Assembly (NCBI GenBank): GCA_016790705.1
Contig: JAEUOT010000043.1
Span: 1 to 64,000, forward strand
DNA length: 64,000 nucleotides
From: Hydrogenophaga sp.
GTDB lineage: Bacteria > Pseudomonadota > Gammaproteobacteria > Burkholderiales > Burkholderiaceae_C
Reading direction: 5' to 3'
The notes below the pieces were generated by a model that worked only from the letters and a program-made list of their open reading frames with translations, had not been told where the DNA came from and did not search any database. This document shows, piece after piece, positions 1,772 to 49,280 of the stretch. The position numbers and the translations under genes were made by a program. Within the stretch, counting starts at the first letter, position 1. Each line of letters starts with the position of its first letter.

Positions 1772-1804
1772 ACGGTGGTCTAAGGCCGATTCCTGTCTCT
1801 CCTG

Positions 1805-2926: not shown

Positions 2927-2943
2927 ATCCACTCGAACGCAAC

Positions 2944-3711: not shown

Positions 3712-3838
3712 CGGGCCGCCGGCGCGGCAAACCGGAAAACAGAGGGAATTCTTTCCCGTTGTTGGCGTTCTTGACGGGCGGTGCGATGCGGGACCATTGG
3801 TCCGTATCGGAAACATCCGCCCTGAAAGGAAGCCTCCC

Positions 3839-4738: not shown

Positions 4739-4758
4739 GTCCTCCGCCGGCGCAGGCC

Positions 4759-7242: not shown

Positions 7243-7312
7243 GCGCCTTCTCCAGTCAATCACCCATGGTAGCGGTGCGGAACCACCCGGTACCAGAGGG
7301 AAAGCGTGAAGC

Positions 7313-8257
7313 TCAGTCGCGCAGAGGACCGTGTCCCAGCACCATCTGGCCGTCGACCAGGCGGAAGCTCACGGTAGGGGCGCTGATGTCGGAGAACGGA
7401 GCCCCCATGGAGAACTCCCCGTCGCTGTGCAGCAGACACTCCTGGCGTCGCAGCGCGATGGCGTTGTCGGCCCCGGCAAATCGGACCCAGGTCCCGTAGC
7501 TGCTCGTGTCTTCGAGCAGGTAGTTGCCCGAGCGGATGTCGATCGAGGCGTGCATCCGGGACACACGAGGATCGTTGACCACGAAATCCGCCTCCGGCAC
7601 CCGTCCGATCTTCAAGGGAAGGTCGGTGAGATTGAATGACTGGCTGGCATCCAGCCAGCCCAGTTCGATGCCGCCGAACACCGATTCGGTGGTCTTGCGC
7701 AACGCGTGCAAGTCGGCGGGCAGCGTCAGGAACTCGGAGAGCATCTCGGTCTGCCATTCGATGCGGAACACCTCCGCCGGCTCCACCCGCCCCTTGATAC
7801 GGATCGGTCCAAGACTGCGGCTGCGCACGTGGTGCCCTTTGCCAAGTCTTCGGATCACGGCATCGTTGGCAAGGATCTGTTCCGGACCGGCCAGGTCGCT
7901 GAGGCGCGATGCAACGTTTACCGCATCACCGAAACAGTCGCCATCCACCTGCACCACCTGACCACGCGCCATGCCAATCTGCATCATCAGCTTCAGACGG
8001 TTGGGCCACTGTGCGACGCGCTGCGAATGCTCCTGCTGAATGGTGCTCATGCACTCGACCGCCAGACGGTTGTTGCTGAAGGACAGCAGCACCCCGTCGC
8101 CGAGCATCTTCACCACCTTGCCGTTGTGTTCGAGCCCCATGGAGCCAATCCATTGGGTGAGCTTGGTGACGGCCTTGGCCGCCCGGTCATTGCCCAGTGT
8201 TTCAAACACCGACACGCTGCCGGTCAGGTCCACAAAGGCAATCGTCAGTTCGGCCAT
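7313..8257 (-). CDS. Class III nucleotide cyclase-like domain plus FHA domain protein
   Basis: A 314-residue two-domain protein. Residues about 1-175 are an adenylate/guanylate cyclase homology domain: it opens with LTIAFVDLTGSV (first metal aspartate), has KMLGDGVLLSF (second aspartate) and DCFGDAVNVASRLSDLAGP. Residues about 205-290 form an FHA phosphothreonine-binding domain with IGR, SRMHA and SSYGTWVRF. It is cytoplasmic and lacks membrane segments. It probably links phosphopeptide recognition to cyclic nucleotide signalling, though activity is not certain because the base-selecting residues were not checked. Expressed alone on the minus strand. Confidence 0.82.
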   Translation of the reverse strand: MAELTIAFVDLTGSVSVFETLGNDRAAKAVTKLTQWIGSMGLEHNGKVVKMLGDGVLLSFSNNRLAVECMSTIQQEHSQRVAQWPNRLKLMMQIGMARGQVVQVDGDCFGDAVNVASRLSDLAGPEQILANDAVIRRLGKGHHVRSRSLGPIRIKGRVEPAEVFRIEWQTEMLSEFLTLPADLHALRKTTESVFGGIELGWLDASQSFNLTDLPLKIGRVPEADFVVNDPRVSRMHASIDIRSGNYLLEDTSSYGTWVRFAGADNAIALRRQECLLHSDGEFSMGAPFSDISAPTVSFRLVDGQMVLGHGPLRD

Positions 8258-8614
8258 GTAGTCAGTTCAAAATTCCGGCGCGGGAAAGCGGGTCCGAATG
8301 CAAGCGTCTGTGGTGTTTATCACGAATCATCGATTTGAATCGCTGGAACAGGGGCTGATTCTGACGCCAGACATGCATCAGTCGCTGTATGCATTCCAAG
8401 GTTCTAGCCCAACGCGGTTGCGTGGGACATCCTGCAGACCAACGGATCCATCTCGTCGAGCCGTGTATATGCAATATCTTAAACAGTCTTTCTAAACGCT
8501 TGATTTGGCTGTTGTTTTATTGACTTCAATCAAGTTCACGCGCTTGCGTGCGCGGTCTTTGCGGCCGTATCCTGCCGGCCTAGAAGACACACACACGTCG
8601 TTGAGAGTTGCCCC
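8258..8614. other. Intergenic region between divergent genes
   Basis: 357 bp between the cyclase/FHA gene (minus) and the small gene at 8615 (plus). It must hold both promoters. The stretch 8460-8535 is AT-richer than its surroundings, with a TTGACT at 8520, but I could not place a convincing -10 box. No hairpin, repeat or small gene is supported. Confidence 0.5.
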
Positions 8615-8947
8615 ATGCGTTGGATCAAGCCTTCCCTTCGCCACAGCATCTCCGCCTTGCTGGGGAACGAAGTCCGCAAGCACTCGCCGGAGTCCCTTGA
8701 GCCGGTTCGGCAAGCCATGCTTGCCGCGCTCGGCGACGACGGCGCCCGTGCCAATCCCCGGTTGAAACATCGGCTCATGTACGTGCACGACGCGCATGCA
8801 CTCTGGTATGCGCGCTCCGAGATGGTCGCTGTGCTCAGCCGCCTTCACGGTGAAGCCAAGGCGGTGGACGTGGTCCGCCAGTTGACGCCCGCTTTTCACG
8901 GCCTGCTGCCCAAGAGTCTGATGGAAGCGGCTCGCGCCGGTCGCTGA
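8615..8947 (+). CDS. Conserved small protein of unknown function
   Basis: A 110-residue protein with GAGAG upstream of the ATG. It is basic at the N-terminus and largely helical in composition, with no signal peptide, membrane segment or cysteine. The stretch RLMYVHDAHALWYARSEMVAVLSRLHGE suggests a real folded protein rather than a chance frame, and codon use matches the neighbours. I do not recognise the family. It is the only plus-strand gene between two minus-strand genes and has its own leader. Confidence 0.6.
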   Translation: MRWIKPSLRHSISALLGNEVRKHSPESLEPVRQAMLAALGDDGARANPRLKHRLMYVHDAHALWYARSEMVAVLSRLHGEAKAVDVVRQLTPAFHGLLPKSLMEAARAGR

Positions 8948-8963
8948 GCCGGCGCCCGTCTGG

Positions 8964-9893
8964 TCAGCCCCAGAACATCAGGGCATCGCGGCCCTGGACC
9001 AGCAGTTCAACTTTCTGGCCGACCGGCAGCAGCACCTTGGTCGGCACATGCCCGAACGGCAGGCCGGTCAATACCGGCGTGCGGGTCCGGCTCCTTAGCC
9101 AGTCGATCACTGTCTGCAGCTTGTACCCGCGGTCATGGGGCACGGTCTTGAAGCGGTTGAAGCTGCCCAGCAAGACCACTTTCTGCCGGTCGATGATCCC
9201 CGCATGCAGCAACTGGGTGAGTTGCCGCTCGATCCTGTAGGGATGCTCATTGACGTCTTCCAGGAACAGCGCGCCGCCCTTGATGGCCGGCAGCCACCGC
9301 GTACCCACCAACGAGCACAGCACCGACAGATTGCCTCCCCACAGCGTCGCGCTCTTCAAGTGCAGTTGGGCTCCCTCCCCGCTGCTGGCCTCGGGCAAGG
9401 TGGGCAGGTCCTTCTTCGGCAGAGTCCATCCGGTGCCCTCGCCCATGCCCCCGGTCAAGTCGTCAAAGCAGGCCTCCATGATGTCGTCCGGTGCTTCGGC
9501 TCCGAAGTCCTCACCCAGCGCCGGACCTGCCCAGGTGACTGCGCCGGTCTTGGCCAGCAACGCGCTCTGCAAGGCGGTGAAATCGCTCAGCCCCACGAAA
9601 TGCGTGCCCTTCTCCACCGCCTTGGCCAGCTGTTTGTAGGGCAGCTCCGGCAGGATGCGTGTGAGCCCGTAGCCCCCGCGAGAGATCAGTGCGATGTCGG
9701 CACCGCTTGCGGCCGCCCGGCCGATGGCGGCCAGCCGCGTCGCGTCGTCGCCGGCAAAACGCATGTGGCTGGCCAGGGCGGCTTCGTCCACCTCAACCTC
9801 GTGACCGAGCTGCTGCAGCCGTTTGACGCCACGCCGGAACGCGGCCTTGTCGCGCACCGCGCTGGACGGGGAATAGATGTAGATGTGGCTCAT
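8964..9893 (-). CDS. ldcA: LD-carboxypeptidase (muramoyltetrapeptide carboxypeptidase)
   Basis: A 309-residue serine peptidase of family S66, the normal length. The nucleophile lies in VGLSDFTALQ (about residue 120), the glutamate of the triad in LFLEDVNEHPYR, and the histidine in LTGLPFGH near residue 280. The RGGYG stretch before the nucleophile is also conserved. It removes the terminal D-alanine from cytoplasmic muropeptide tetrapeptides during cell-wall recycling. It lies 18 bp downstream of the tadA fusion on the same strand, so it may share its transcript. Confidence 0.88.
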   Translation of the reverse strand: MSHIYIYSPSSAVRDKAAFRRGVKRLQQLGHEVEVDEAALASHMRFAGDDATRLAAIGRAAASGADIALISRGGYGLTRILPELPYKQLAKAVEKGTHFVGLSDFTALQSALLAKTGAVTWAGPALGEDFGAEAPDDIMEACFDDLTGGMGEGTGWTLPKKDLPTLPEASSGEGAQLHLKSATLWGGNLSVLCSLVGTRWLPAIKGGALFLEDVNEHPYRIERQLTQLLHAGIIDRQKVVLLGSFNRFKTVPHDRGYKLQTVIDWLRSRTRTPVLTGLPFGHVPTKVLLPVGQKVELLVQGRDALMFWG

Positions 9894-9911
9894 GGAATCT
9901 TCGGTTCGCGT

Positions 9912-11896
<1,985 letters not shown>

Positions 11897-11937
11897 GCAG
11901 CACCTCCTGAGGCGGCGTTTGGAGGATCCCATTCTGC

Positions 11938-35708: not shown

Positions 35709-36878
35709 ATGGATGACGGAACTTCACCGGCCCGGCGCGTGGATTTGCCCACGGCAAACACCATTTCCACCCTGGGCGGCACAGTGGAACCAGTGGATCG
35801 CGCCGCCATCGCCATCCGGACCTTCCAGACACCCGAGCGTGAGCCGGGCGAACGGTACGAGTTGCGTGACCCGTTCGCCGAACTCACCTACCGCACGAAC
35901 CGTTACGAAGACATGGTGGCCAAAGCCGACCAGCTCGGCGCCAACCGGTTCGTCGTCGTGGATGTGCGCGGGCAAAAGTCCTTCATTCACAAGATCGATG
36001 GCCAATGGCAGCGGGATCAAGCCCCTGATGTCCAGCCCCCAACGACCGACCCGCAAGCGAAAACGACAAACCCCGAAACGGTACGCCAGCCCGCTGAGTC
36101 GAAGATCATCCCCATGCCCGCCAAAGACAAGGGGGTCAAAGCCCCGGAAGCTTCCAGCCCGCAAGCCAGCGCCCGAATAGACGCACAGGCCGAGCGTGAA
36201 GCCCTCGTCGCACGGCTGGAGTCGGCACTGATGGACCGATACATCATCAAGCGCGCCCCGGTCACCCTTGGCGACGTCAGCATTGGCCTCACCGAGTACC
36301 GCTTCCGGGGTGACACATCACGCATCGCGTTCACCGAATCCACCTTCCGGCTGGCCACCGACACAAACAGCCCATCCGTTGCCAGATCTATGGTTGATGT
36401 CGCAGAGGCCCGAAACTGGCACTCCCTGCGCATCACAGGCAGCGAGGATTTCAGGCGCCTCGTCTGGCTGGAGGCCGCTGCACGCGGTGTCAAAACCCTG
36501 GGCTACGAGCCCAACCCCGCCGACCTGGATCGGCTCAAGGTGGAACGGGAACAACGCCTGAGCAACCGCATTGAACCTGCCCGGGAAGCCTCCACCGCAC
36601 AGGACGCCAACACCGCTGACAAGCCATCCAGCCGTGGCGGCGGCGGACGCAAAACCGTTCTGGCAGCCATTGAAGCCATCCTGGTGGCCAATCGGATACC
36701 CGAGAAAAGGCGCGAGGCCATCATGGTGGCGGCAGCCGAGAAGCTTGCCCAGCGCACCCGCGACGGTCTGGTGCACAAGGTCAAGGTCTACGACAAGAGC
36801 GCTCCCTCCCAGCGTCCTGTCGTGACTCCTCGGCAAGAACCACAACACTCGCGTGAACGGGCGGCTCCCGCACGCTGA
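35709..36878 (+). CDS. LPD7-domain conjugation-associated protein
   Basis: 389 residues, soluble. Residues about 35-100 form a small domain (AELTYRTNRYEDMVAKADQ, RFVVVDVRGQKSFIHK). After a disordered linker, residues about 175-280 match the large polyvalent protein-associated domain LPD7: VTLGDVSIGLTEYRFRGD, FRLATDTNSPSVARSMVDVA, WHSLRITGSEDFRRLVWLEA, and GVKTLGYEPNPADL. In other elements LPD7 is fused to relaxases; here it stands alone, 41 bp after the lipoprotein gene. It probably works in DNA processing or protection of the transferred strand; exact role unknown. Confidence 0.72.
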   Translation: MDDGTSPARRVDLPTANTISTLGGTVEPVDRAAIAIRTFQTPEREPGERYELRDPFAELTYRTNRYEDMVAKADQLGANRFVVVDVRGQKSFIHKIDGQWQRDQAPDVQPPTTDPQAKTTNPETVRQPAESKIIPMPAKDKGVKAPEASSPQASARIDAQAEREALVARLESALMDRYIIKRAPVTLGDVSIGLTEYRFRGDTSRIAFTESTFRLATDTNSPSVARSMVDVAEARNWHSLRITGSEDFRRLVWLEAAARGVKTLGYEPNPADLDRLKVEREQRLSNRIEPAREASTAQDANTADKPSSRGGGGRKTVLAAIEAILVANRIPEKRREAIMVAAAEKLAQRTRDGLVHKVKVYDKSAPSQRPVVTPRQEPQHSRERAAPAR

Positions 36879-36888
36879 GGCTGGCGCG

Positions 36889-38127
36889 GTGGACGATCCC
36901 CCAGAATCAACTTCCACCTACTTGATAGGTGGTCGCAGCTGGGCAATGCATACGCCCGGATTCGCCCATGCCATTGCCGAGGCCTACGCGAACCACCAGC
37001 GCCCCCGCTGTTTGTGCCGTCCAGATGGCGACGGCATCGAGATGTACGTCGCCCGCTTGATGAACGGCTACATCGTCAAGCGCATGCCCAATACCGGGAG
37101 TCAGCATGCCACTGCATGCCCTTCCTATGAACTGCCTTCCGATCTGTCGGGCCTGGGCCAACTGGTCGGTACGGCCATTGTGGAAAACCCCTCGACGGGC
37201 GAAACGGCATTGAAGCTCGACTTCCCATTGTCCAAACTGCCCGGCAGGTCGTCCCAACCACCCGCCGCCAGCGCTTCGCCCAATATCGCATCCCAAGGTC
37301 AGAAGCTCAGTCTGCGCGCCCTGCTCCACTACCTGTGGGACCAGGCCGAACTGACCCACTGGCACCCGGGGTTCGCGGGCAAACGGAACTGGGCCATCGT
37401 CCGTCGGCACCTGCTTTCAGCCGCAGCGCACAAGTTCACACATGGCAGCGAACTGCAGAGCCGCCTGTATGTGCCCGAAGTGTTCTCGGTAGAGCATCGC
37501 GCCCCCATCAATGCGCGCCGCCTCGCCGAATGGACCAGCGCCTTGGCGCACCCCGGCAAACCCAGTCAACTCATGCTGCTGATCGGCGAAGTCAAAGAAA
37601 TCGTGCCATCGCGGTACGGTTTCAGAGCGGTCATCAAACATATCCCCGATCAAGCCTTCGCCATCGACGAGCGCTTGTTCCGCCAGCTGGAGCGCCGATT
37701 TGCAGGCGAGCTGGCACTTTGGGGAGCCTTCGATTCCATCCATCTGGTCATGGTCGGGACCTTCTGCGTCAGCTATTCAGGGCTGCCCACCATCGACTCC
37801 CTCTCGCTGGTCACCTTCACCCCGGAATGGATTCCGGTGGACAGCCCGCAGGAGGCCCACCTCGTCCGATCCCTGGTCAGCTGCCGACGAAGCTTTGTGA
37901 AGACCCTTCGGTACAACCTGTGCGCGGGCACCGACATGGCCAGCGCCGTGCTCACCGACCTGGGCGAACCGGTCGAGCTGTACATCGCAACGGAAAGCGA
38001 CTCCGGCGAAGAAAACCCGGGTTTGCCTTCTCAAGATCGTGATCTGCCCGTCCAGCGGTGGGAGTGGCACCCATCCCGACAGACCCTTCCCCCGTTCCCG
38101 ACCGTCAAAAGGGAAGCCCTCGCGTGA
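36889..38127 (+). CDS. DUF1173 family protein
   Basis: 412 residues from the GTG at 36889, chosen because TGAGG lies 8 bases upstream; an earlier GTG at 36853 would overlap the previous gene by 26 bp. The N-terminal zinc-ribbon-like part is clear: RPRCLCRPDG, MYVARLMNGYIVKRMPNTG, then HATACPSYE. The rest is family-specific (LWDQAELTHWHPGFAGKRNW). DUF1173 proteins are found in ICEs and plasmids next to transfer genes; no activity is known. It ends the transfer operon before the restriction island. Confidence 0.8.
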   Translation: MDDPPESTSTYLIGGRSWAMHTPGFAHAIAEAYANHQRPRCLCRPDGDGIEMYVARLMNGYIVKRMPNTGSQHATACPSYELPSDLSGLGQLVGTAIVENPSTGETALKLDFPLSKLPGRSSQPPAASASPNIASQGQKLSLRALLHYLWDQAELTHWHPGFAGKRNWAIVRRHLLSAAAHKFTHGSELQSRLYVPEVFSVEHRAPINARRLAEWTSALAHPGKPSQLMLLIGEVKEIVPSRYGFRAVIKHIPDQAFAIDERLFRQLERRFAGELALWGAFDSIHLVMVGTFCVSYSGLPTIDSLSLVTFTPEWIPVDSPQEAHLVRSLVSCRRSFVKTLRYNLCAGTDMASAVLTDLGEPVELYIATESDSGEENPGLPSQDRDLPVQRWEWHPSRQTLPPFPTVKREALA

Positions 38128-38307: not shown

Positions 38308-41300
38308 ATGCAAGGGAGCAAGCGTTCCAATTTCGATCTGCTCAAACCCTACGAGCAGCAGCTCTGGCGCCTCGGCGCCTTGGCGGAGCGGTACTTTTCA
38401 GACGATCCCAACACCAGTCTGCTCAAGCTTCGCCAGCTCGCCGAACTGCTGACCCAATCGGTCGCCGCCCGGGTCGGTCTGTACACCTCAGCCGAAGAGT
38501 CCCAATACGACCTGATCCGTCGCCTCCAGGCTGAGGGTTTCCTCCCTCGTGAAATCAAACAGCTGCTGGACCAGATTCGCGTGGCGGGCAATGCCGCCAA
38601 CCACGCACTTGAAGGCAATCACGCCAAAGCTCTGGCGTCACTTCGATTCGCCTGGCAATTGGTACTCTGGTTTCACCGGACATTCAAAGAACCTGACTTC
38701 CGTTCCGGCCCGTTTCTGCCACCAACCCCTCCCGAAGACGAAAGCGCCGAACTCAGGACCCAGCTGGAAGGTCTTCGCCAGGCGGTGGTCGAATACCAAT
38801 CCAGGCACGAGCAGGTTCAGAACCAGCTGACCCAGGCCCAGTCACAACTCTCCACCCTGGCAGAAGAGCGCACGGTGTGGGAACAGGTCGCCACCGAGGC
38901 CGAAGAAGCCAAGGCACAACTCGGCCAGCGCCTTGAAGCACTGCAGATTGAAGTCAAGGCAGCGCCTCAATTCAACAAGACCCAGCTGCTTTCGTTTGCC
39001 ACCGCCGCCGCCTCGCAGGTGGTGCTGGACGAATCCCAGACCCGGCGCCTGATCGACGAACAGCTGCGCCAGGCTGGCTGGGAAGCCGACACCGAAGTCC
39101 TGCGCTACAGCAAAGGCACCCGTCCGGAGCGAGGCCGCAACATCGCCATCGCCGAATGGCCCTGCGAGGGTTACTCGGCCGACTACGTGCTGTTCCAAGG
39201 CCTCACCCCCCTGGCGGTGGTCGAAGCCAAACGCGAGGCTAAAGACGTATCAGCCGCCTTGCAGCAAAGCAAGCGCTACAGCCGCACCTTCGGCGCCAGC
39301 TCGGAGACCTTTCTCCACGAAGAAAACTGGGGCGAACGTGGTGAGTTCCGCATCCCCTTTGTGTTTGCCACCAACGGGCGCCCTTACCTGCGCCAGCTGG
39401 CCACCAAAAGTGGTATCTGGTTCTGCGACCTGCGCCGCCCGGAGAACCTCGCCCATGCGCTGGACGGCTGGTATTCGCCCCAGGGTCTTCAGGTCCTGCT
39501 CACCCGCGACGAGGCCCGCGCGGACCAGGAATTGAGCAACACTGCCTTCAACTACGGTTTCCCGCTGCGCCACTACCAGCAAACCGCCATCCAGGAAACC
39601 GAGCGCCGCATCAGCCAGGGCCAGCGCGAAATTCTGCTGGCCATGGCCACCGGCACCGGCAAAACCAAAACCTGCGTCGCGCTCATCTACCGCCTGCTCA
39701 AGGCCAAGCGCTTCCGCCGCATCCTGTTCCTGGTGGATCGTTCAGCGCTGGGCATCCAGGCCGCCAACGCCTTCAAAGACACCCGCATGGAACGCCTGCA
39801 GACCTTTGCAGACGTGTTCGGCATCAAGGAACTGGACGAGCAGATGCCCGACGAAGACACGGGCGTACAGGTCGCCACGGTGCAGGGCATGATGAAACGG
39901 GTGCTGTTTCCGGCCGATGGCGTGGCGCCGCCCACCGTGGACCAGTTCGATTGCATCGTCATCGACGAATGCCACCGCGGCTACACGCTGGACCGCGAAA
40001 TGTCCGACACCGAAATGGCCTTTCGCGGGTTTGACGACTACATCTCCAAATACCGCCGGGTGCTCGACTATTTCGACGCCACCAAGATCGGCCTCACCGC
40101 CACCCCGGCGCTGCACACCACCGAAATCTTTGGCGCGCCGGTCTATTCGTACACCTACCGCGAGGCCGTGGTCGATGGCTTCCTGGTGGACTACGAGCCG
40201 CCCATCCAGCTCTACACCGAGCTGTCCACCCATGGCATGACCTGGCACGTGGGCGAAGACGTCAAGGTCTACGACGTCACCAAAAATCAGATCGACTTGT
40301 TCAAGGCGCCCGACGAGATCAAGCTCCAGGTCGAAGACTTCAACCGCAAGGTCATCACCCGCCCCTTCAACGAAGCGGTGTGCCAGTACCTGGCCCAGGA
40401 GCTGGACCCCAGCGGGCGCCGCAAGACGCTCATCTTCTGCGTCAGCAGCAGCCACGCCGATCTGGTGGTTGAAGTCCTCAAGAAGGCCTTCGAAACCCAA
40501 TACGGTTCGGTGGAGGACGATGCGGTCATCAAGATCACGGGCGACGCCGACAAACCCCTGGAACTCATCCGCCGCTACAAAAACGAGCGCCTGCCCAACG
40601 TGGCGGTCACGGTGGACCTGCTCACCACCGGCATCGACGTGCCGGAAATATGCAACCTGGTCTTCCTGCGCCAGGTCAACAGCCGCATCCTGTTTGACCA
40701 GATGCTTGGCCGCGCCACCCGCCTGTGCGATTTTGACGGCGAAGCCAAAGACAACTTCCGGGTCATCGACGCCGTCCGCGTGTTCGAGAACATCGGGAAC
40801 ATGACCGCCATGAAACCCGTGGTGGTCAACCCCAAGCTCAGTTTCTCTCATCTGGAAGGCGAACTGCTTACCGTCGCCGACGATGCGGCCCGCGAGCTGG
40901 TGCGCGACCAGTTCCTGGCCAAGTTCCAGGTCAAAAAGCGCCACCTCCAAGGCAAAGACGCCCAGGACTTCGAGACCAAGTCCGGCATGTCGCCCGACGA
41001 CTTCGTCAAAAGGGTCCGTGCCCTACCCTTGAACGAACTGGCCAAGTGGTTTGCCCAGCACCCTGACCTGGGCGAAATCCTCGACCGCAAGCACGAAGGC
41101 AACGGCCAGGGCATGTACGTCTCGGACCACCCGGACCAGCTGAAGAACGTCGAACGCGGGTACGGCAAGGCCACCCGACCCGAGGACTACCTCAAGGAAT
41201 TCAAGGCCTTCATCGAGAGCCACGGCAACGAACTGCCGGCGCTACTGACCGTGCTCACCCGCCCGCGCGACCTCACCCGCCAGCAGCTCAAGGAACTGGT

Positions 41301-41718
41301 GCTGGCGCTCGACAAAGCCGGCTACACCGAGGCCCGCCTCGCCACCGCCTGGCGCGAACTCAGCAACCAGGACATAGCCGCCCGCATCATTGGCTATATT
41401 CGCCAGGCCGCCGTGGGGGATGCCCTGCTCCCCTACGCCGAGCGTGTGGACCACGCCCTGCAAAACCTGCTGGCGAAACCACCCGGCGGCGTTGCCTGGA
41501 CCAACCCGCAGCGCGACTGGCTCAAACGCATCGCAGCGCAAACCAAAGCCAACCTGCTGGTGGACCGCGCCGCCCTCGACGACCCCGACCTCATCTTCAA
41601 ACGCGAAGGCGGCGGCTTCAACCGCCTCGACAAAATCTTCAATGGCCAGCTCCAGCCCGTGCTGGAAGCCTTTAACGATGCGCTGTGGGCGCTGCCGCCC
41701 CAGTCTGCACAACGCTGA
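38308..41718 (+). CDS. hsdR: Type I restriction enzyme, restriction subunit HsdR
   Basis: 1136 residues. Residues about 1-130 are a DUF4145-like helical domain, followed by a coiled coil (about 150-215). The PD-(D/E)XK nuclease has D292 and E306-A-K308 (DYVLFQG, VVEAKRE). The translocase has Walker A ATGTGKT (447-453) and the DECH box (553-556), then TTGIDVPEI and a LGRATRL motif VI. It cuts unmodified DNA after ATP-driven translocation. It opens a five-gene island inserted between the DUF1173 gene and the mobilisation module. Confidence 0.93.
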   Translation: MQGSKRSNFDLLKPYEQQLWRLGALAERYFSDDPNTSLLKLRQLAELLTQSVAARVGLYTSAEESQYDLIRRLQAEGFLPREIKQLLDQIRVAGNAANHALEGNHAKALASLRFAWQLVLWFHRTFKEPDFRSGPFLPPTPPEDESAELRTQLEGLRQAVVEYQSRHEQVQNQLTQAQSQLSTLAEERTVWEQVATEAEEAKAQLGQRLEALQIEVKAAPQFNKTQLLSFATAAASQVVLDESQTRRLIDEQLRQAGWEADTEVLRYSKGTRPERGRNIAIAEWPCEGYSADYVLFQGLTPLAVVEAKREAKDVSAALQQSKRYSRTFGASSETFLHEENWGERGEFRIPFVFATNGRPYLRQLATKSGIWFCDLRRPENLAHALDGWYSPQGLQVLLTRDEARADQELSNTAFNYGFPLRHYQQTAIQETERRISQGQREILLAMATGTGKTKTCVALIYRLLKAKRFRRILFLVDRSALGIQAANAFKDTRMERLQTFADVFGIKELDEQMPDEDTGVQVATVQGMMKRVLFPADGVAPPTVDQFDCIVIDECHRGYTLDREMSDTEMAFRGFDDYISKYRRVLDYFDATKIGLTATPALHTTEIFGAPVYSYTYREAVVDGFLVDYEPPIQLYTELSTHGMTWHVGEDVKVYDVTKNQIDLFKAPDEIKLQVEDFNRKVITRPFNEAVCQYLAQELDPSGRRKTLIFCVSSSHADLVVEVLKKAFETQYGSVEDDAVIKITGDADKPLELIRRYKNERLPNVAVTVDLLTTGIDVPEICNLVFLRQVNSRILFDQMLGRATRLCDFDGEAKDNFRVIDAVRVFENIGNMTAMKPVVVNPKLSFSHLEGELLTVADDAARELVRDQFLAKFQVKKRHLQGKDAQDFETKSGMSPDDFVKRVRALPLNELAKWFAQHPDLGEILDRKHEGNGQGMYVSDHPDQLKNVERGYGKATRPEDYLKEFKAFIESHGNELPALLTVLTRPRDLTRQQLKELVLALDKAGYTEARLATAWRELSNQDIAARIIGYIRQAAVGDALLPYAERVDHALQNLLAKPPGGVAWTNPQRDWLKRIAAQTKANLLVDRAALDDPDLIFKREGGGFNRLDKIFNGQLQPVLEAFNDALWALPPQSAQR

Positions 41719-41729
41719 AACCGAATCCC

Positions 41730-43307
41730 ATGTCCAACCCCAATGCCGCGCTCGACATCGGCGCCAAGCTCTGGTCGCTTTGCAACGTGCTGCGCGACGA
41801 CGGTGTCACCTACCACCAGTACCTGAGCGAACTCACCTACCTGCTGTTCCTGAAAATGATGCAGGAGACCGGGCAGGAAGAACGCCTGACCGTGTTCAAG
41901 TCCCCCAAGAAGGGCGAGCCCAAGCTGCTGCAGCCCGGCGTGCGCTGGGCCGACCTGATCAGCGCCTCCGCGCCCGACCGGCTCGACACCTACAAGGAAA
42001 TGCTGCTGGACTACGGCCTGCACGGCCAGGGCGCTGTGCAGGCCATTTACGCCAACGCCAACACCTTCATCACCAAGCCGGCCACGCTGAGCAAGCTCGT
42101 CACTGAAATTGATGCGCTCGACTGGTACAGCGTGCAGCGCGACGACCTGGGCGACCTGTACGAAAACCTGCTGGAACGCAACGCCACCGAGAAGAAAAGC
42201 GGCGCCGGCCAGTACTTCACGCCCCGCCACCTGATCGACAGCATCGTCACCGTGCTCAACCCCAAGCTGGGTGACGTGATCCAGGATCCAGCGGCCGGCA
42301 CATGCGGCTTCCTCATCGCGGCCAACAACCACCTGCGCAAACACAACGACTTCAACAGCCTCAAGGAAGAGGCCCAGCGCCGCTACCGCCACGACACCTT
42401 CTACGGCATGGAGCTGGTGCAAGACACCCACCGCCTGGCGCTGATGAACATGCTGCTGCACGGCATTGAAGGCGGCGTGGACTACGGCGACACCCTGAGC
42501 GAGGACTACCGCAAGCTCCCGCCCGCCACGCTGATCCTCTCCAACCCGCCCTTTGGCACCAAAAAAGGCGGCGGCCTGCCCACCCGCACCGACCTCACGT
42601 ACATCACCAGCAACAAACAGTTCGCCTTCCTGCAGCACATCTACCGCAGCCTCAAGCCGGGTGGCCGTGCCGCCGTGGTGCTGCCCGACAACGTGCTCTT
42701 TGAAAGCAACGTGGGCACCGACATCCGCCGCGATCTGATGGAGAAGTGCAACCTCCACACCATCCTGCGCCTGCCCACCGGCATCTTTTACGCGCAGGGC
42801 GTCAAGACCAACGTGCTCTTCTTCACCAAGGGCGAGAAGGACAAGGGCAACACCAAAGAGGTCTGGGTGTACGACATGCGCGCCAACATGCCCCAGTTTG
42901 GCAAGCGCACCCCCTTCACGCGCGACTACTTCCGCACCCCGGCAGACGCGCCCGCCAGCCAGCCGCGCGACAAATTTGAAGACGTGTTCGGTGACGACCC
43001 GAAAGGCGGCCCCGCCGCACTGGCCAAACGCGTGGACACCGGTGAAACCGGCCGCTGGCGCAAATTCACCCGCGAACAGATTGCCGCCCGTGGCGACAAC
43101 CTCGACATCGCCTGGCTCAAGGACGACAGTGCCGAAACCGCCGAAGCCCAGCGCGACGACCCCGCCCTGGTGGCCCGGCTGCTGCAGCGCGAGCTGGGCG
43201 GCGCCATGGCCGAACTGCGCGCCCTGCTCGAAGAACTGGGCGAAGACCCCGACGCCGCGCTGGACGACCTGCTGATCGACGAAACCGGGCAAGAGGCCCA
43301 GGCATGA
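41730..43307 (+). CDS. hsdM: Type I restriction-modification, methylase subunit HsdM
   Basis: 525 residues from the ATG at 41730, 12 bp after hsdR. The SAM-binding motif is DPAAGTCGF (186-194), and the N6-adenine catalytic motif is NPPFG (272-276). The helical N-terminus (ALDIGAKLWSLCNVLRDDG) is typical. With HsdS it methylates adenines in the target site. Its stop overlaps the next start by 4 bp. Confidence 0.94.
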   Translation: MSNPNAALDIGAKLWSLCNVLRDDGVTYHQYLSELTYLLFLKMMQETGQEERLTVFKSPKKGEPKLLQPGVRWADLISASAPDRLDTYKEMLLDYGLHGQGAVQAIYANANTFITKPATLSKLVTEIDALDWYSVQRDDLGDLYENLLERNATEKKSGAGQYFTPRHLIDSIVTVLNPKLGDVIQDPAAGTCGFLIAANNHLRKHNDFNSLKEEAQRRYRHDTFYGMELVQDTHRLALMNMLLHGIEGGVDYGDTLSEDYRKLPPATLILSNPPFGTKKGGGLPTRTDLTYITSNKQFAFLQHIYRSLKPGGRAAVVLPDNVLFESNVGTDIRRDLMEKCNLHTILRLPTGIFYAQGVKTNVLFFTKGEKDKGNTKEVWVYDMRANMPQFGKRTPFTRDYFRTPADAPASQPRDKFEDVFGDDPKGGPAALAKRVDTGETGRWRKFTREQIAARGDNLDIAWLKDDSAETAEAQRDDPALVARLLQRELGGAMAELRALLEELGEDPDAALDDLLIDETGQEAQA

Positions 43308-44335
43308 GCCAGCTCACGCCCACCCCGGTCGCCAGCCTGCACGCAGAGCTGCGCGCCCTCATCGCCAGCAGCCGCCAGCGGCTGGCGACCGCCGTCAACG
43401 CCGAACTGACCCGCCTGTACTGGACAGTGGGCCAGCGCCTGAACGCGGAAGTGTTGGGCGGCGAACGTGCCGGCTACGGCGCCCAGCTGCTCGACCAGCT
43501 GGGCAAGCAATTGTCCAGTGAGTTCGGTCGCGGCTTTGAATCCCGCAACCTGCGCCGCATGGTGAAGTTTGCCGAGGCGTTCCCCAGCGCCGAGATTGTG
43601 TCGACACTGTCGGCAAAATTAAGCTGGAGCCACCTGGTGGCCATCGTGGCCCTCAAAACCCCGGAAGCCCGCCAGTTCTACGCCCAACATGCCGCGCAAG
43701 ACGGCTGGAGCGTGCGCGAGCTGAGCCACCAGATCGAGCGCAAAGCCTTCGAGCGCACGGAGATCGCCACCACCCAGGCGCCCGCGCTGCCGGCCACGCC
43801 GCTCCAGGTCTTCAAAGACCCCTACTTCCTGGACTTTCTGGGCTTGCGCCAGGGCCACGACGAAGCCGACCTTGAAGCCGCCATCCTGCGCCAGCTCGAA
43901 GCCTTCATCCTGGAGCTCGGCCGGGGCTTTGCGTTTGTCGAACGGCAAAAGCGCATGGTCATCGACGGAGAAGATTTCTACCTGGACCTGCTGTTCTTCC
44001 ACCGCCGCCTGCGCCGCCTGGTCGCCATCGAACTCAAGCTCGGCCGCTTCAAGGCTGCCCACAAGGGCCAGATGGAGCTGTACCTGAAGTGGCTGGACAA
44101 ACACGAACGCCAGGCTGGCGAAGAAGCGCCCATCGGCCTCATCCTCTGCGCCGAATCCAGCCGCGAACAGGTTGAACTTCTGCAGATGCATAAGGACGGC
44201 ATCACCGTGGCCGAGTACTGGACCGAGCTGCCGCCCAAGGCCGAACTGGAACAGCGGTTGCACGAGGCACTGGTAGAGGCGCGTGAGCGCCTAGCGCGGC
44301 GTGGGTTGCTGTTGGAAGGTGGCAGCGATGAATGA
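43304..44335 (+). CDS. DUF1016 PDDEXK nuclease-domain protein (YhcG-like)
   Basis: 343 residues. The N-terminal helical half (ELRALIASSRQRLATAVNAEL, FESRNLRRMVKFAEAF, LSWSHLVAIVALK) and the C-terminal nuclease half (DFYLDLLFFHRRLRRLVAIELK: D228, E243, K245) match the DUF1016/YhcG family. Such genes are often embedded in type I loci. Here it lies between hsdM (4-bp overlap) and hsdS (8-bp overlap), so the three must be co-translated. It may be a second, independent nuclease or a regulator of the complex; no activity is proven for this context. Confidence 0.88.
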   Translation: MSQLTPTPVASLHAELRALIASSRQRLATAVNAELTRLYWTVGQRLNAEVLGGERAGYGAQLLDQLGKQLSSEFGRGFESRNLRRMVKFAEAFPSAEIVSTLSAKLSWSHLVAIVALKTPEARQFYAQHAAQDGWSVRELSHQIERKAFERTEIATTQAPALPATPLQVFKDPYFLDFLGLRQGHDEADLEAAILRQLEAFILELGRGFAFVERQKRMVIDGEDFYLDLLFFHRRLRRLVAIELKLGRFKAAHKGQMELYLKWLDKHERQAGEEAPIGLILCAESSREQVELLQMHKDGITVAEYWTELPPKAELEQRLHEALVEARERLARRGLLLEGGSDE

Positions 44336-46190
44336 ACTGCCGGAAAGCTGGACCACTGCGCCGCTGTCAGCCATTTCAACCGACGTCACTCAGCGCGTGC
44401 CGGGAGAGACTGAGACTTTCACCTACATCGACATCGGGTCCGTAAACCGGGACACGAAAGCCATCACGACACCACAGGTGCTGCTTGGCAAAGATGCCCC
44501 GAGCAGGGCCAGAAAACAGGTCGCAAAGGGTGACACCCTGGTATCGATGACACGGCCCAATTTGAATGCGGTGGCATTGGTGCCACCCTCGTTGGATGGG
44601 CAAATCGCATCAACGGGCTTCGACGTTTTGAGGCCGCTCGACGGTGTCGATCCACGGTGGCTGGCATATCTGGTCCGGACAGAACAATTTGTGTCCGCCA
44701 TGTCTGAGCTTGTGCAGGGTGCGCTTTACCCTGCTGTGAGAACAAAGGATGTCCGCGCCTTTGTTGCACCTATAGCCCCGTCTGCAGAGCAATCCCGCAT
44801 TGCCGACCAACTCGATACCCTGCTGGCCCGGATCAACGCCTGCCATCACCGTCTCGACAAAATCCCCGCACTGCTCAAGCGATTTCGGAAGGCGGTGCTG
44901 GATGCAGCCACAACGGGTGCATTGATCGAGGACTGGCCAACGTCTGATGCGACGCGGTGGCCTATGGTCTCTCTTGGTGCGCATGCGAGCGACTTTTCGT
45001 ATGGCACGGCTGCCAAATCCGAGAAGTCGGGTCGCGTGCCTGTACTGCGCATGGGGAACATCCAAGGATGTCGCCTGGACTGGGCGGATCTTGTCTACAC
45101 CTCCAACGAAGCAGAAATCAAAAAGTACGAACTCAAAAAGGGTGACGTCCTGTTCAACCGGACTAACAGTCCGGAGCTGGTGGGAAAGACGGCGATTTAC
45201 CAGGGTGAACAACCTGCCATCTATGCTGGCTACCTCATCCGCGTACGCTGCAACGAAGAGTTGCTGCCCGAGTATTTGAACTACTGCTTGGGAAGCACTG
45301 CGGGACGTAACTTCTGCTGGGCGGAGAAGTCAGATGGTGTGAGCCAGTCCAACATCAACGCCAAGAAGCTTCGAGCCTTCAAGTTCAATCTGCCGAAGCC
45401 AGAAGAACAGTGCGAGATTGTCCGGCGCGCCGAATCACTCTTCCGACTCGCTGACAGTATTGAAGCTCACTACCAAGCGATGTGCGTCCATTCACAACGT
45501 CTGGCTCCACAAGCGTTGGCCAAAGCCTTTCGTGGCGAGTTGGTGCAGCAAAACCCGCAAGACGAACCGGCCAGCATCCTGTTGCAGCGCATCGCCGGAA
45601 AACAGCCCGAAAAGCTGAAAACCACGCGCGGGCGACCACGGGTCAAAAAGCCGGAAACCGCAGAAGTCTTGCCGGTCGCCCAGCCCGACTGGTCCACCTT
45701 GCCTGCTGGCGCATGGGCAGCACAGGTGCCCGCCGACGAACACACGGCCACCGCCCAGCTCACCGCAGTGCTCAAGGCCTGGAACAAGCCCATGCCCCAG
45801 GACACGGCGCGCCTGGCCACCCTGTTATGCCTGCAGCCACGGCTCTTGACCGCTGCGCTGCCGGCAGACCACGCTGCGCAATGGCGCCGATTGGTGGGCG
45901 ATGCGGCGGCCCCCTTGCCTGCACAGGTGGTCACCCTGCAACCCGCCTTCAACACACCCTGGCGCAACGCCATCAGCAAGATGCGGGCGCGCGAGGACCT
46001 GGTCGAATCCGGCCCCGGCGCGCAAGGCACTTGGGCGCTTGGGCCTGATGCAGCGCGGATAGACACCGCGGGTTGGCCCGATGGCCGTGCAGGCTGGGTG
46101 GTGCACTACTTGCAAATGCACGGTGTGGAGGCGGTGTTGCCGACGTTGGCCACCGAGGTACAGGAGTTCGTTCATGCGCGTGCAGCCTGA
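44328..46190 (+). CDS. hsdS: Type I restriction-modification, specificity subunit HsdS with C-terminal extension
   Basis: 620 residues from the ATG at 44328. Residues about 1-185 and 190-395 are the two target-recognition halves, each ending in the conserved helix (SAEQSRIADQLDTLLARINACHH; PKPEEQCEIVRRAESLF). The usual length is about 400-450; here a Pro-rich linker (TTRGRPRVKKPE) leads to an extra domain of about 160 residues with no relation I recognise (WNKPMPQDTARLATLLCLQP, WVVHYLQMHGVEAVLPTLA). HsdS sets the DNA target for both HsdM and HsdR. The extension may contact the next gene product. Confidence 0.9.
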   Translation: MNELPESWTTAPLSAISTDVTQRVPGETETFTYIDIGSVNRDTKAITTPQVLLGKDAPSRARKQVAKGDTLVSMTRPNLNAVALVPPSLDGQIASTGFDVLRPLDGVDPRWLAYLVRTEQFVSAMSELVQGALYPAVRTKDVRAFVAPIAPSAEQSRIADQLDTLLARINACHHRLDKIPALLKRFRKAVLDAATTGALIEDWPTSDATRWPMVSLGAHASDFSYGTAAKSEKSGRVPVLRMGNIQGCRLDWADLVYTSNEAEIKKYELKKGDVLFNRTNSPELVGKTAIYQGEQPAIYAGYLIRVRCNEELLPEYLNYCLGSTAGRNFCWAEKSDGVSQSNINAKKLRAFKFNLPKPEEQCEIVRRAESLFRLADSIEAHYQAMCVHSQRLAPQALAKAFRGELVQQNPQDEPASILLQRIAGKQPEKLKTTRGRPRVKKPETAEVLPVAQPDWSTLPAGAWAAQVPADEHTATAQLTAVLKAWNKPMPQDTARLATLLCLQPRLLTAALPADHAAQWRRLVGDAAAPLPAQVVTLQPAFNTPWRNAISKMRAREDLVESGPGAQGTWALGPDAARIDTAGWPDGRAGWVVHYLQMHGVEAVLPTLATEVQEFVHARAA

Positions 46191-48147
46191 GTTGTTTGAA
46201 CCCATGCCACTGTCCGTCCCGCTGCCCCCCGGTGGTGAACAACCAGCTCTCTGGGTGCGCCGGCTCACGATCTGGAAGGAACCGGGCAACCTGGTGCGCA
46301 GCATTGAACTGCGGCCCGGCCTGAACTTCATCTGGTCGCCCGACCCGGCCGACATGGGGAACCAGAGCGAAGCGGGTGAACTGGGCCACGGGGCCGGCAA
46401 GACGCTGTTTTGCCGGTTGCTGCGTTACTGCCTGGGTGAAGACCGTTTTGCGCCAGAGGATCAGAGACTCAGCATCGGCACGGCCTTTCTGAACGGCTGG
46501 GTGTCGGCCGAAGTGGTGCTGAATGGCTCGCCTTGGGCGGTGCTGCGTCCGCTGGGTGTGGGGCGCGGCCACTTTGCGGTGCAAGGCGTGATGCCAGAGC
46601 AACTGTTCGAGCGCTTGAACGAACCCACCGGCATGGCACCGCTGATCGATGCCATCGAACAGCACGTGATCACGAAGAACGTCACCGCCTTGATGCCCGT
46701 GGACCAGTTGCACGATGCCTGGCGCGTGGCGCTGGCTTGGCTGACGCGGGACCAGGAATGTCGGTTCGACCATGTGCTGGACTGGCGCGCGGCGGAGTCC
46801 AACTCGGAGTCGCCGACCCGCTCCATGTCGCGCGGCCGTCTGCAGGACTCGATGCGGGCGCTGATCGCCGCCATCTCGCCCGACGAGATGCAGTTGCAAG
46901 CCGAAGCCAATGCGCAGGGCGAAGAACTCAAGACCCAACAGAACGAGGCCGCCCGCTGGCAATGGTCCTGTGAGCACCTGCGCACCGATGTGTTGCGGTC
47001 GTTGGGACTGACGTCAACGGCGGTACCCGAAGGTCGCCTGGGTTTGGAAACACTCCGCCTGGTCGCACGCCAGAAGCTGGCGCAAGCAGCGAAAACGGAC
47101 GATTCCGTGGACGTGTCCAACCTGGAGGCTTTGCGGCAACGTGCACGCGAAGCGGTCAAGGTAGTCACGGATCTGGAGCAGCAACTGGCGGTGGCAAACA
47201 GCAACCTGCCACTGCACAAGAGCCTGCTGAAAACCCTGCAAGCGGAACTGCCGTCCACCTCGGTGCAGGTACGGGACGCCGAGGTGCCCTCCTGCCAGAT
47301 TTGCGAAGTCCCCATTGACCGCGCATTGGCCGAAGGCTGCAAGCTCTCACACAAACTGCCTGACCTCGACAAATTGCGCCAGCGGTACGAGGTGTTGCAG
47401 AAGCAGATCACAGAGAAGTCGGCCGAAGTTGACGCCACTCAGGCGAACATCAACAGTACTAGGCAACAGCTACCCGCAGCGCGCACGACGAGTGACACGT
47501 TGCAGCAGGCCGTGAAGAAGGCAGAGAGGCTGAGCGACAGCCGCTCGACAGCCTGGAGCCAGGGGAAAAAGAACCTGGACGACATCCAGCGCCTGGAGCA
47601 CGACTGGGCATCGTGGGAGCAGGCGCAGGAAAAGGTCGCGAAGCTTCAGGAGCAGATCGATAACAAGCGCGAGCGCCTGGCAGCGTTCCGCGACCAGCAG
47701 TTCGAGGTGTTCTCTGGTCTGTCCATCTACTTCAACGCGATCATCAGGGCAGCTGTGGGGCCTACCGCTTCCGGCAAGGTCACGCTCGACGGCAACGGCA
47801 TGAAGCTGGCGGTTCAGCTGGGCGGTGAGCGTTCCACCGCGGCGATCGAGTCACTGAAAGTGATTGCCTTTGACCTGGCGGTGATGTGCATGAGCATGCA
47901 GGGGACCACCCGCCTTCCAGCGTTTCTGCTGCACGACAGCCCCCGGGAAGCCGATCTGGGCCTGAGCGTCTACCACCGCCTGTTCGATGTGGTGAACGGG
48001 CTGGAGGGCACCTCGACCTCGGCTTTTCAGTACATCGTCACGACCACCACGCAACCCCCACCCGCATTCCAGCAGAGACCGTGGCTGCGCGAGGTGCTGC
48101 GCGGTGCTCCGCCGCAAGAGCGCCTTCTGCGCTGCGATCTGCCTTGA
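46174..48147 (+). CDS. Rad50/SMC-like ATPase with zinc-hook motif, linked to the type I system
   Basis: 657 residues from the ATG at 46174 (CAGGAG upstream, 17-bp overlap with hsdS). The N-terminal ATPase half has GHGAGKT (71-77) followed by LFCRLLRY. Long coiled-coil arms (about 230-370 and 390-510) flank a CQIC motif (C374, C377), the position and form of a Rad50 zinc hook. The C-terminal half has a signature-like GGERSTAAIESL and a Walker B-like FLLHDSPRE (D588, E592). There is no nuclease or HEPN domain after it, unlike RloC. It probably acts as a DNA-binding clamp with the restriction complex; this is inference. Confidence 0.78.
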   Translation: MRVQPELFEPMPLSVPLPPGGEQPALWVRRLTIWKEPGNLVRSIELRPGLNFIWSPDPADMGNQSEAGELGHGAGKTLFCRLLRYCLGEDRFAPEDQRLSIGTAFLNGWVSAEVVLNGSPWAVLRPLGVGRGHFAVQGVMPEQLFERLNEPTGMAPLIDAIEQHVITKNVTALMPVDQLHDAWRVALAWLTRDQECRFDHVLDWRAAESNSESPTRSMSRGRLQDSMRALIAAISPDEMQLQAEANAQGEELKTQQNEAARWQWSCEHLRTDVLRSLGLTSTAVPEGRLGLETLRLVARQKLAQAAKTDDSVDVSNLEALRQRAREAVKVVTDLEQQLAVANSNLPLHKSLLKTLQAELPSTSVQVRDAEVPSCQICEVPIDRALAEGCKLSHKLPDLDKLRQRYEVLQKQITEKSAEVDATQANINSTRQQLPAARTTSDTLQQAVKKAERLSDSRSTAWSQGKKNLDDIQRLEHDWASWEQAQEKVAKLQEQIDNKRERLAAFRDQQFEVFSGLSIYFNAIIRAAVGPTASGKVTLDGNGMKLAVQLGGERSTAAIESLKVIAFDLAVMCMSMQGTTRLPAFLLHDSPREADLGLSVYHRLFDVVNGLEGTSTSAFQYIVTTTTQPPPAFQQRPWLREVLRGAPPQERLLRCDLP

Positions 48148-48179: not shown

Positions 48180-49280
48180 TCAGCGGGTCGGATGAATGTC
48201 GGTTGACGGTGTGGGTTGCTGGCGAGTTTGCCGTTGATCGGTTTGTGGCGTCGGGTGTTGCCTAGTCTCTTGCGGCCTCTCGGGTTTCGTCTGCGCATCG
48301 GCCGCCTTGTTTGAATCGGACACGCCCCTCACGAAGCTGGCGATGTGTTTCGCCAGTTGCCTGTCCGTCGCCTGCCCAGAGCCGGCGAGGGCCAGACCGA
48401 TCTGCACCCAGGCATCCACCGCATCAGCCCTTGAGGCATGCAGCTTCGGCCCTTCGGTTCCGCTGGATCGGACCTTGCGCAAGCGTCCATCCTCTTGTGC
48501 CTTCAGTCGCCATAACTGATCGGGTTGGTGGAACTTGGCACGAGTGACTTGCCGTGTGGCCTCCGCCTCGACGCCGTAGCCTCGCAACTTTTCCGCGAAG
48601 GTTTCGCGCCAGCGGTGCAGGTCGTTCTTGCGTGGGTTGAGGCGCTTGCCCAGCCTGGACACGGCGCGCAAGCTGATGTGCACGTGCGGGTTGGCCTGGT
48701 GGTCGTGCAGCACCATGACGTATTTGTGGTCGGCCAGTTCGGCCTGCGCAAACTCCCGCGCGGCGCGTTGCACGATCAGCGGATCGGTGCCGCGCGGCAT
48801 CGATAGCATGATGTTGAAGGCCTCGCGCCGCTGACCTGGCTCAGCGTCCTCAGGGATGCGCGCGCCGCCCAGGCGCCACTCATCGGCCAGGTGGTGCAGG
48901 CTGTCTTTGCCTTGCATGGTCTCACCGCGCTGGTCTTCGATCTCCAGCCGTCCGTTTTTGCTGATGTACCGAAAGTGCGCCGCAATGGCGGCCATGCTCC
49001 GCCCTCCCCCGGTGACCTTGACCATGACCTGAGGGGCACGCCGAACGACGGTGGCTTCGATGCGCTGGCGGATGGCGTTGGCACGATGGTGTGCGCCCGA
49101 AGCGCCCAGCTTGAGCTGGGGACGAACCTGGACGATGCGGTTGCCCGGGTAGAACAGGCGGTCGCCCCAAGTGATGAGGATGCCGTCAACGTCGGGGGCA
49201 TGGGGAGCGCTGGTCAGGGTCGAGGGCATGGACGAAGTGCCAGACAAGGCAGCGCTTGGGCCGCCGGTGGGCTTTTTCAT
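48180..49280 (-). CDS. Relaxase, MobA/VirD2 (MOB_P-like) family
   Basis: 366 residues. Motif I with the probable catalytic tyrosine is HFRYISKNG (about residue 104); motif III is HDHQANPHVHISLRAV (about 194-209), with the metal-binding histidines. The C-terminal 60 residues are Gln, Pro and Thr-rich and may carry the secretion signal. It nicks oriT, stays bound to the 5' end and is exported through VirD4. It overlaps mobC by 4 bp (ATGA). Its 3' end faces the restriction island. Confidence 0.87.
   Translation of the reverse strand: MKKPTGGPSAALSGTSSMPSTLTSAPHAPDVDGILITWGDRLFYPGNRIVQVRPQLKLGASGAHHRANAIRQRIEATVVRRAPQVMVKVTGGGRSMAAIAAHFRYISKNGRLEIEDQRGETMQGKDSLHHLADEWRLGGARIPEDAEPGQRREAFNIMLSMPRGTDPLIVQRAAREFAQAELADHKYVMVLHDHQANPHVHISLRAVSRLGKRLNPRKNDLHRWRETFAEKLRGYGVEAEATRQVTRAKFHQPDQLWRLKAQEDGRLRKVRSSGTEGPKLHASRADAVDAWVQIGLALAGSGQATDRQLAKHIASFVRGVSDSNKAADAQTKPERPQETRQHPTPQTDQRQTRQQPTPSTDIHPTR

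Follow-up and report, generated by a model that had tools for sequence, protein, structure and literature searches.

A type I restriction–modification operon in Hydrogenophaga sp. with a likely LmuC-like domain on HsdS and an overlapping gene for an LmuB-like ATPase

Five genes, all on the forward strand, occupy positions 38308-48147 of the 64,000-nucleotide stretch of Hydrogenophaga sp. contig JAEUOT010000043.1 analysed here (hereafter the window). In order they encode the type I restriction–modification (R-M) subunits HsdR and HsdM, a DUF1016/YhcG protein, the specificity subunit HsdS and a coiled-coil ATPase of the ATP-binding cassette (ABC) type. An 11-bp gap separates hsdR from hsdM, and successive overlaps of 4, 8 and 17 bp then lead down to the ATPase. 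An initial annotation made from the sequence alone had described this block correctly, together with the length of the ATPase (657 residues), its 17-bp overlap with hsdS, the cysteines C374 and C377 and the HDSPRE motif. The key feature, however, is one that it named only in a proposed test: a C-terminal extension of HsdS, which is likely to be the equivalent of LmuC, the partner of LmuB in Lamassu defence systems. The features are as follows.

38308-41718, forward: hsdR, 1136 residues, EcoKI-like type I restriction subunit of the PRK11448 family
41730-43307, forward: hsdM, 525 residues from an ATG (longer alternative start, GTG 41685), N6-adenine methyltransferase subunit
43304-44335, forward: gene for the DUF1016/YhcG protein, 343 residues, PD-(D/E)xK nuclease-like
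44328-46190, forward: hsdS, whole gene, 620 residues from an ATG (longer alternative start, GTG 44301)
44328-45620, forward: canonical specificity part of hsdS, two target recognition domains, residues 1 to about 430
45693-46187, forward: predicted LmuC-like adapter domain, the C-terminal part of HsdS, about residues 456-620
46174-46190, forward: 17-bp overlap of hsdS and the ATPase gene
46174-48147, forward: gene for the LmuB-like (DUF2326) coiled-coil ABC ATPase, 657 residues from an ATG
46384-46404, forward: Walker A codons, GHGAGKT, ATPase residues 71-77
47293-47352, forward: zinc motif of the coiled-coil apex, C374xxC377, C389 and H393
47932-47955, forward: Walker B region, HDSPREAD, ATPase residues 587-594

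Family scans used Pfam, PADLOC and NCBIfam, with HsdM and HsdS scanned without their first Met. HsdR matches NF008521 at 1519.5 bits (cut-off 729) and combines an HSDR_N nuclease part of the PD-(D/E)xK type with ResIII, an SF2 motor and EcoEI_R_C; HsdM matches PF02384 (6.7e-74), the DUF1016 protein both DUF1016_N (2.8e-46) and YhcG_C (1.3e-47), and HsdS both PF01420, in two stretches (5.8e-15), and the PADLOC Specificity_I model (1.9e-85). An EcoKI-like type I R-M system is present in all its parts: an HsdR with nuclease and motor, HsdM, and an HsdS with two target recognition domains. The block contains no YprA-like or BrxHII-like gene, no LmuA effector was recognised in it from the open reading frame (ORF) list and the Pfam and PADLOC scans, and a scan for promoters and terminators gave no excess over shuffled sequences. 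The complete arrangement was found again in four other genomes (L014, L015, L018 and L052), and in a fifth (L016) the end of hsdS and the ATPase gene lie at a contig edge; because the arrangement recurs in this way, the block is not the product of chance.

The ATPase is matched by the LmuB models of PADLOC (best 1.8e-18) and, below threshold, by DUF2326 of Pfam (24.3 against 28.7 bits). Predicted structure and profile both point to LmuB, the SMC-like subunit of Lamassu, and on these grounds we class the protein as LmuB-like. The initial annotation had called it Rad50-like; it is neither a free Rad50 relative nor an RloC remnant, and it is not RecN. Rad50 models score at most 14.0 bits against cut-offs of at least 700, and no Mre11/SbcD-like partner was recognised among the proteins of the block, an absence already noted in that annotation. 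RecN (TIGR00634) scores 9.2 bits against a cut-off of 407.85, and PbeC models match weakly (8.7 and 8.2 bits). As had also been predicted, the anticodon-nuclease part of RloC is missing from the matches in all three databases, and ABC-head structure matches extend to residues 651-657. Neither a HEPN nor any other toxin domain was matched in the ATPase in the same scans.

Homologues of the ATPase came from plasmid records (10, namely eight full-length matches and two distant ones from Priestia), from genomes of the class (2 of 369, the host's own and G015), from viral contigs (one, L003) and from a survey of 84,980 species, each represented by one genome (79 loci covered from 214 relatives); phage records gave none at E 1e-5. 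Once a copy of the window (L001), the two distant Priestia loci (L012 and L013) and a copy of L006 (L032) had been dropped, 89 loci remained, the window included. The expectation that these homologues would consistently follow hsdS in company with DUF1016 was not borne out: most of them lie apart from hsd genes. The gene upstream of the ATPase encodes a large DrmMI-like methyltransferase in 73 of the 89 and a type I HsdS in six, the other ten having another gene or a contig edge there. The type I loci are the window, L014 (Hydrogenophaga), L015 (Methylibium), L018 (Ideonella), L052 (Pseudorhodoferax) and L016, the last counted as such on a contig that holds just the end of hsdS at that place.

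Of the 68 non-type-I loci with at least 9.9 kb of upstream sequence, 62 have a YprA/DruE-like helicase piece and 64 a DpdE/BrxHII-like helicase. PADLOC, applied to one methyltransferase-type operon, returned DruE (2.9e-81), DpdE (1.4e-183) and DrmMI (1.8e-209). Both the families and the gene order agree with ARMADA type I as set out in the main text of PMC12458937, and we assign these operons as ARMADA-like by gene order and family. Two loci were considered as a third context and rejected, L071 because it looks rearranged and L079 because it is fragmentary; both were kept as 'other'. In L071 itself (positions 1568-11902, Bradyrhizobium), the ATPase ORF is overlapped by a short DruE-like one, and the locus also encodes a PDC-S68 protein (1387 bits) and a helicase of BrxHI/DpdE-like type.

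The junction with the ATPase is similar in both settings: a 17-bp overlap from stop to start is seen in 46 of the 73 ARMADA-linked loci and in five of the six type I loci, the sixth (L016) overlapping by 8 bp from the BLAST start and by 17 bp from the ORF start. What lies 3' of the ATPase differs. A single HNH query used in BLAST placed an HNH gene after the ATPase, within 5.5 kb of the start of its gene, in 50 of the 69 ARMADA-linked loci with enough sequence, in six of the ten 'other' loci and in none of the six type I loci. Three of the type I loci have instead, directly 3' of the ATPase, a protein of 319-326 residues (L015:11971-12927, L016:2834-3799, L018:11971-12936) whose match to DUF5655 exceeds the Pfam cut-off and whose match to NucS_C falls short of it; no such NucS-like protein was found in the other 86 loci at E 1e-3, the best match in the window having an E value of 0.74.

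The adapter, as we shall call the C-terminal domain of HsdS, is a separate unit of about 165 residues beyond the canonical specificity part. It has no match in Pfam or PADLOC, and NCBIfam gave only unrelated matches below cut-off. Its homologues are the C-termini of ARMADA/DISARM-like methyltransferases (tblastn, 34-43% identity, E 9e-32 to 6e-6, eight plasmid loci). In one of these, L004, the DrmMI profile stops before the adapter: residue 1233 of the protein's 1438 already corresponds to position 1324 of the 1347 in the profile. This suggests that the domain is absent from usual DrmMI proteins. The predicted model is of winged-helix type, and its two top-ranked structural matches are LmuC chains, with a modest score and no support from sequence. 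We therefore describe the end of HsdS as the likely LmuC equivalent by predicted fold and by place, and not by sequence.

Adapter and ATPase are found together. By BLAST, 81 of the 89 loci have an adapter match immediately 5' of the ATPase; three further ARMADA-like loci (L076, L084 and L085) gave no match, two of them being placed in the adapter alignment by position, and the five others without an adapter are at a contig edge, rearranged or truncated. Two adapter queries match seven and eight plasmid records, all among the eight with a full-length ATPase. Across 398 genomes of the phylum, with no more than three ATPase candidates and eight adapter candidates scored per genome, the ATPase profile matches eight genomes (nine places) and the adapter profile two, both among those eight. 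A DrmMI-like piece lies upstream of the ATPase in seven of the eight more divergent places outside the window (the exception being L114), and there the adapters may have diverged beyond the reach of the profile. No adapter without an ATPase was found in the plasmid records or the phylum genomes. The view that the ATPase is tied to the R-M complex, first put forward from the gene overlap, is strengthened by this association.

How the pair came to lie on a type I operon can be read from two trees. In that of the ATPase (86 loci with at least 550 residues; to be read with care because of long branches in other parts of the tree and the residue composition of L052), the six type I loci form one group with support of 100 inside the ARMADA-linked loci, sister (99) to L004 and L005, from Paraburkholderia/Caballeronia plasmids. 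The adapter tree (82 loci) gives the same group (100/100) and again, more weakly (81/83), the same sisters. HsdM at E<=1e-100 is present in six of the 369 class genomes, the host's included. No adapter or ATPase was found by BLAST in the stretches examined of the other five, of which L104 has only a piece of hsdM. L100 has hsdM, DUF1016 and hsdS in the same order, with an HsdS of 478 residues, no adapter and no ATPase, hsdR being cut by the contig end. On plasmids, such an HsdM occurs in 47 records, and no ATPase record is among the best 40 of the 47. Since both trees place the same type I group among the ARMADA-linked loci, and since an operon of the L100 type exists without the pair, the sequences fit a single, joint move of adapter and ATPase from an ARMADA-like methyltransferase to HsdS. 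L100 also disposes of the idea that DUF1016 and the ATPase are one unit, the former being present there without the latter.

Two side observations concern related type I operons. An ORF lies between hsdR and hsdM in L100 (10570-11055) and L104 (9356-9841), and its translation resembles a PIN-type toxin. In L103 (138-2398), another type I hsdS is followed, with successive overlaps, by genes for a 551-residue protein with a P-loop-like motif and a 201-residue protein; this is a different R-M add-on.

The window and L014 share 88-94% identity in three pieces over 36276-57286, except at 44341-45516, the target recognition part of hsdS. Their proteins are 98% (HsdR), 99% (HsdM) and 96% (DUF1016) identical, the HsdS core 36%, the adapter 86% and the ATPase 90%. 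From these alignments, the specificity part of hsdS has been exchanged between the two, the adapter staying with the ATPase. Ratios of nonsynonymous to synonymous substitution rates (dN/dS) against four relatives are 0.15-0.31 (ATPase) and 0.18-0.30 (adapter), values that indicate purifying selection on both. These figures, and the persistence of the adapter through replacement of its neighbour, tell against the idea that the pair are passengers, captured by recombination and tolerated. That idea gains something from the rarity of the type I context and from signs of decay: only the last 193 residues of the ATPase are left in L080 (Hydrogenophaga pseudoflava), and the DUF1016 genes of L018 and L052 match in two pieces. 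The split DUF1016 genes, like an in-frame stop in the hsdS of L052, reflect either decay or sequencing errors, and L080 either a large deletion or a different cargo history. We consider mere passengers very improbable. In L080, a related element, the matches to window positions 13589 and 47564 meet near position 10001, and no more than the end of the ATPase gene is left.

The reading that we favour, with moderate confidence, is that an EcoKI-like type I system (HsdRMS and DUF1016) has acquired the sensor part of a Lamassu-type machine, tethered through HsdS: an LmuC-like domain would form the C-terminus of HsdS, and the LmuB-like ATPase of the SMC/Rad50 family would be translated from the overlapping frame. 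Some observations weigh against it. No sequence link between adapter and LmuC was found in Pfam, NCBIfam, PADLOC or PDB sequences, none with two genes that precede distant LmuB-like ATPases in Priestia, and none with 17 aligned genes from the LmuC position of Lamassu-type loci; and the stop in L052 falls before the adapter, which counts against function in that relative. The 17 genes were picked by eye from 30 Lamassu-type loci (29 of the 398 genomes; an upstream ORF of 90-480 residues in 25 of the 30) and aligned as sets of 10 and 7; one matched a solved LmuC (9hqu_D, E 0.00047) and two others matched nothing. The genes at this position in L117-L146 fall into at least two sets hardly linked by profile comparison.

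A type I M2S enzyme has one HsdS, hence one adapter per complex. The adapter would dock an LmuB-like ATPase dimer on the methylase or restriction complex, and the zinc hook and ATP-bound heads would form a clamp on DNA ends or aberrant DNA structures, such as the products of HsdR translocating along and cutting unmethylated DNA, or the structures of replicating phage. The clamp might then hold or license a nuclease. Because no LmuA was recognised and the block offers no nuclease-like candidates other than HsdR and DUF1016, one or both of these are probably the effector; in relatives the candidates are the NucS-like protein (three loci) and the HNH protein (most ARMADA-like loci), each 3' of the ATPase. 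PMC10586767 presents LmuB as the presumed sensor of DNA structures, LmuA as the effector and LmuC as the middle component, missing from some systems; the PDB title of 9hqu names a nuclease sequestration state. Like the tie of the ATPase to the complex, the initial annotation's suggestion of a clamp or sensor coupled to restriction stands, as the best reading.

The motifs of the ATPase bear on what such a clamp might do. The full zinc motif is CxxC-x11-C-xxx-H. Of 86 ATPases, 21 depart from the strict C-C-C-H pattern, the type I L015 (Arg for His) being one of them, and 8 depart from strict GHGxGKT, including the type I L052 (Ser for Thr). No Glu follows the Walker B Asp (HDS), and Ser appears to take the usual place of the catalytic Glu in HDSPREAD; Gln is common there in LmuB (passages of PMC10586767). 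The missing Glu would make a slow ATP clamp likelier than a fast motor. Such a residue would not suit a DNA-scanning or modification aid, in which ATPase and adapter, like DndD/DndE or SMC-ScpB, would help HsdMS to scan or loop DNA, be it in methylation or in restriction, with no sensing of ends. Dnd and CxC-ABC systems (DndD-DndE, PbeABCD) do combine a coiled-coil ABC ATPase with a small DNA-binding partner on DNA modification (PMC10853773, in part). Here, however, the partner has a winged-helix-type model and not a ribbon-helix-helix, and is fused to HsdS; moreover, the nearest relatives by profile and fold are Lamassu subunits. We regard a scanning role as rather unlikely.

Abortive defence is less likely still. 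Here the ATPase would sense, through HsdS, inhibition or failure of the type I enzyme and would kill or halt the cell in the manner of PrrC or RloC. There are precedents: a linked type I enzyme keeps PrrC silent, RloC, a zinc-responsive PrrC relative, has the ABC part in common with it and resembles Rad50 (PMC2610378 and PMC3874168), and abortive infection is thought to be the mode of Lamassu (PMC10586767, in part). The block nevertheless has an ATPase with no matched toxin domain and no separate effector gene directly 3' of it in the window, and a type II ARMADA system is reported in PMC12458937 to be non-abortive, although the relatives here resemble type I. PrrC- and RloC-linked systems pair a type I enzyme with a genetically linked coiled-coil ABC protein, as the present block does, and RloC, too, has a zinc hook; but here the tie is a dedicated HsdS domain and the protein is LmuB-like.

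In Lamassu (LmuA-LmuC-LmuB, of the ABC-3C/DdmABC superfamily), the ATPase follows LmuC, where here it follows a predicted LmuC-like fold; it likewise has zinc-hook cysteines at the coiled-coil apex and is of similar size, about 650 residues (PMC10586767). The predicted LmuC-like part is, however, no free protein but is fused as the C-terminal part to HsdS or to an ARMADA-like methyltransferase. LmuA effectors have a variable enzymatic N-terminus and a docking C-terminus. Because no LmuA was recognised, we regard the block as carrying a Lamassu-like module and do not class it as a Lamassu system; HsdR or DUF1016 could stand in. ARMADA type I/DISARM-like operons (YprA-like helicase, BrxHII/DpdE-like helicase, PglX/DrmMI-like methyltransferase) have the same pair at their 3' end, but the window uses HsdS for recognition and HsdR as helicase-nuclease.

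The block is probably cargo of a conjugative or mobilisable element. It lies between genes of conjugation type: those for an LPD7 protein and a DUF1173 protein upstream (window 35709-38127) and one downstream for a MobP1-like relaxase (48180-49280) that scores 118.6 bits, below the model cut-off of 200.

Among the papers listed in our literature search, none describes an HsdS-adapter/LmuB-like fusion, although an earlier mention is possible in a survey of ABC ATPases (Krishnan et al. 2020, Nucleic Acids Research). The portions of PMC12839542, PMC10853773 and PMC12707154 consulted do not describe it, and the terms SMC, Rad50 and HsdS do not occur in the main text of the ARMADA preprint (PMC12458937). 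For annotation, the marker is an HsdS or DrmMI-like protein that ends in about 165 unexplained extra residues and is followed by an overlapping DUF2326-like gene.

More tentatively, at somewhat less than even chances, we propose that the LmuC-like domain and LmuB-like ATPase form a portable sensor cassette, plugged by natural recombination onto the C-terminus of any protein that both recognises DNA and methylates it. If so, sequence-specific R-M (type I in the window, ARMADA in other loci) would become two-key immunity, in which a methylation check by HsdS or the methyltransferase is joined to a check of DNA ends or structure by the SMC-like clamp. The nucleases (HsdR/DUF1016, NucS-like, HNH) would be interchangeable. 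The C-terminal domain of HsdS would offer a simple handle on communication between SMC-like sensors and nucleases. Three defence families usually kept apart, type I R-M, ARMADA/DISARM and Lamassu, are joined by one swappable domain pair. This suggests that classical R-M can gain a second check, on DNA ends or structure, which would bear on how type I enzymes spare the host and on phage escape, and that new immune systems arise in bacteria through the exchange of a ready-made sensor unit.

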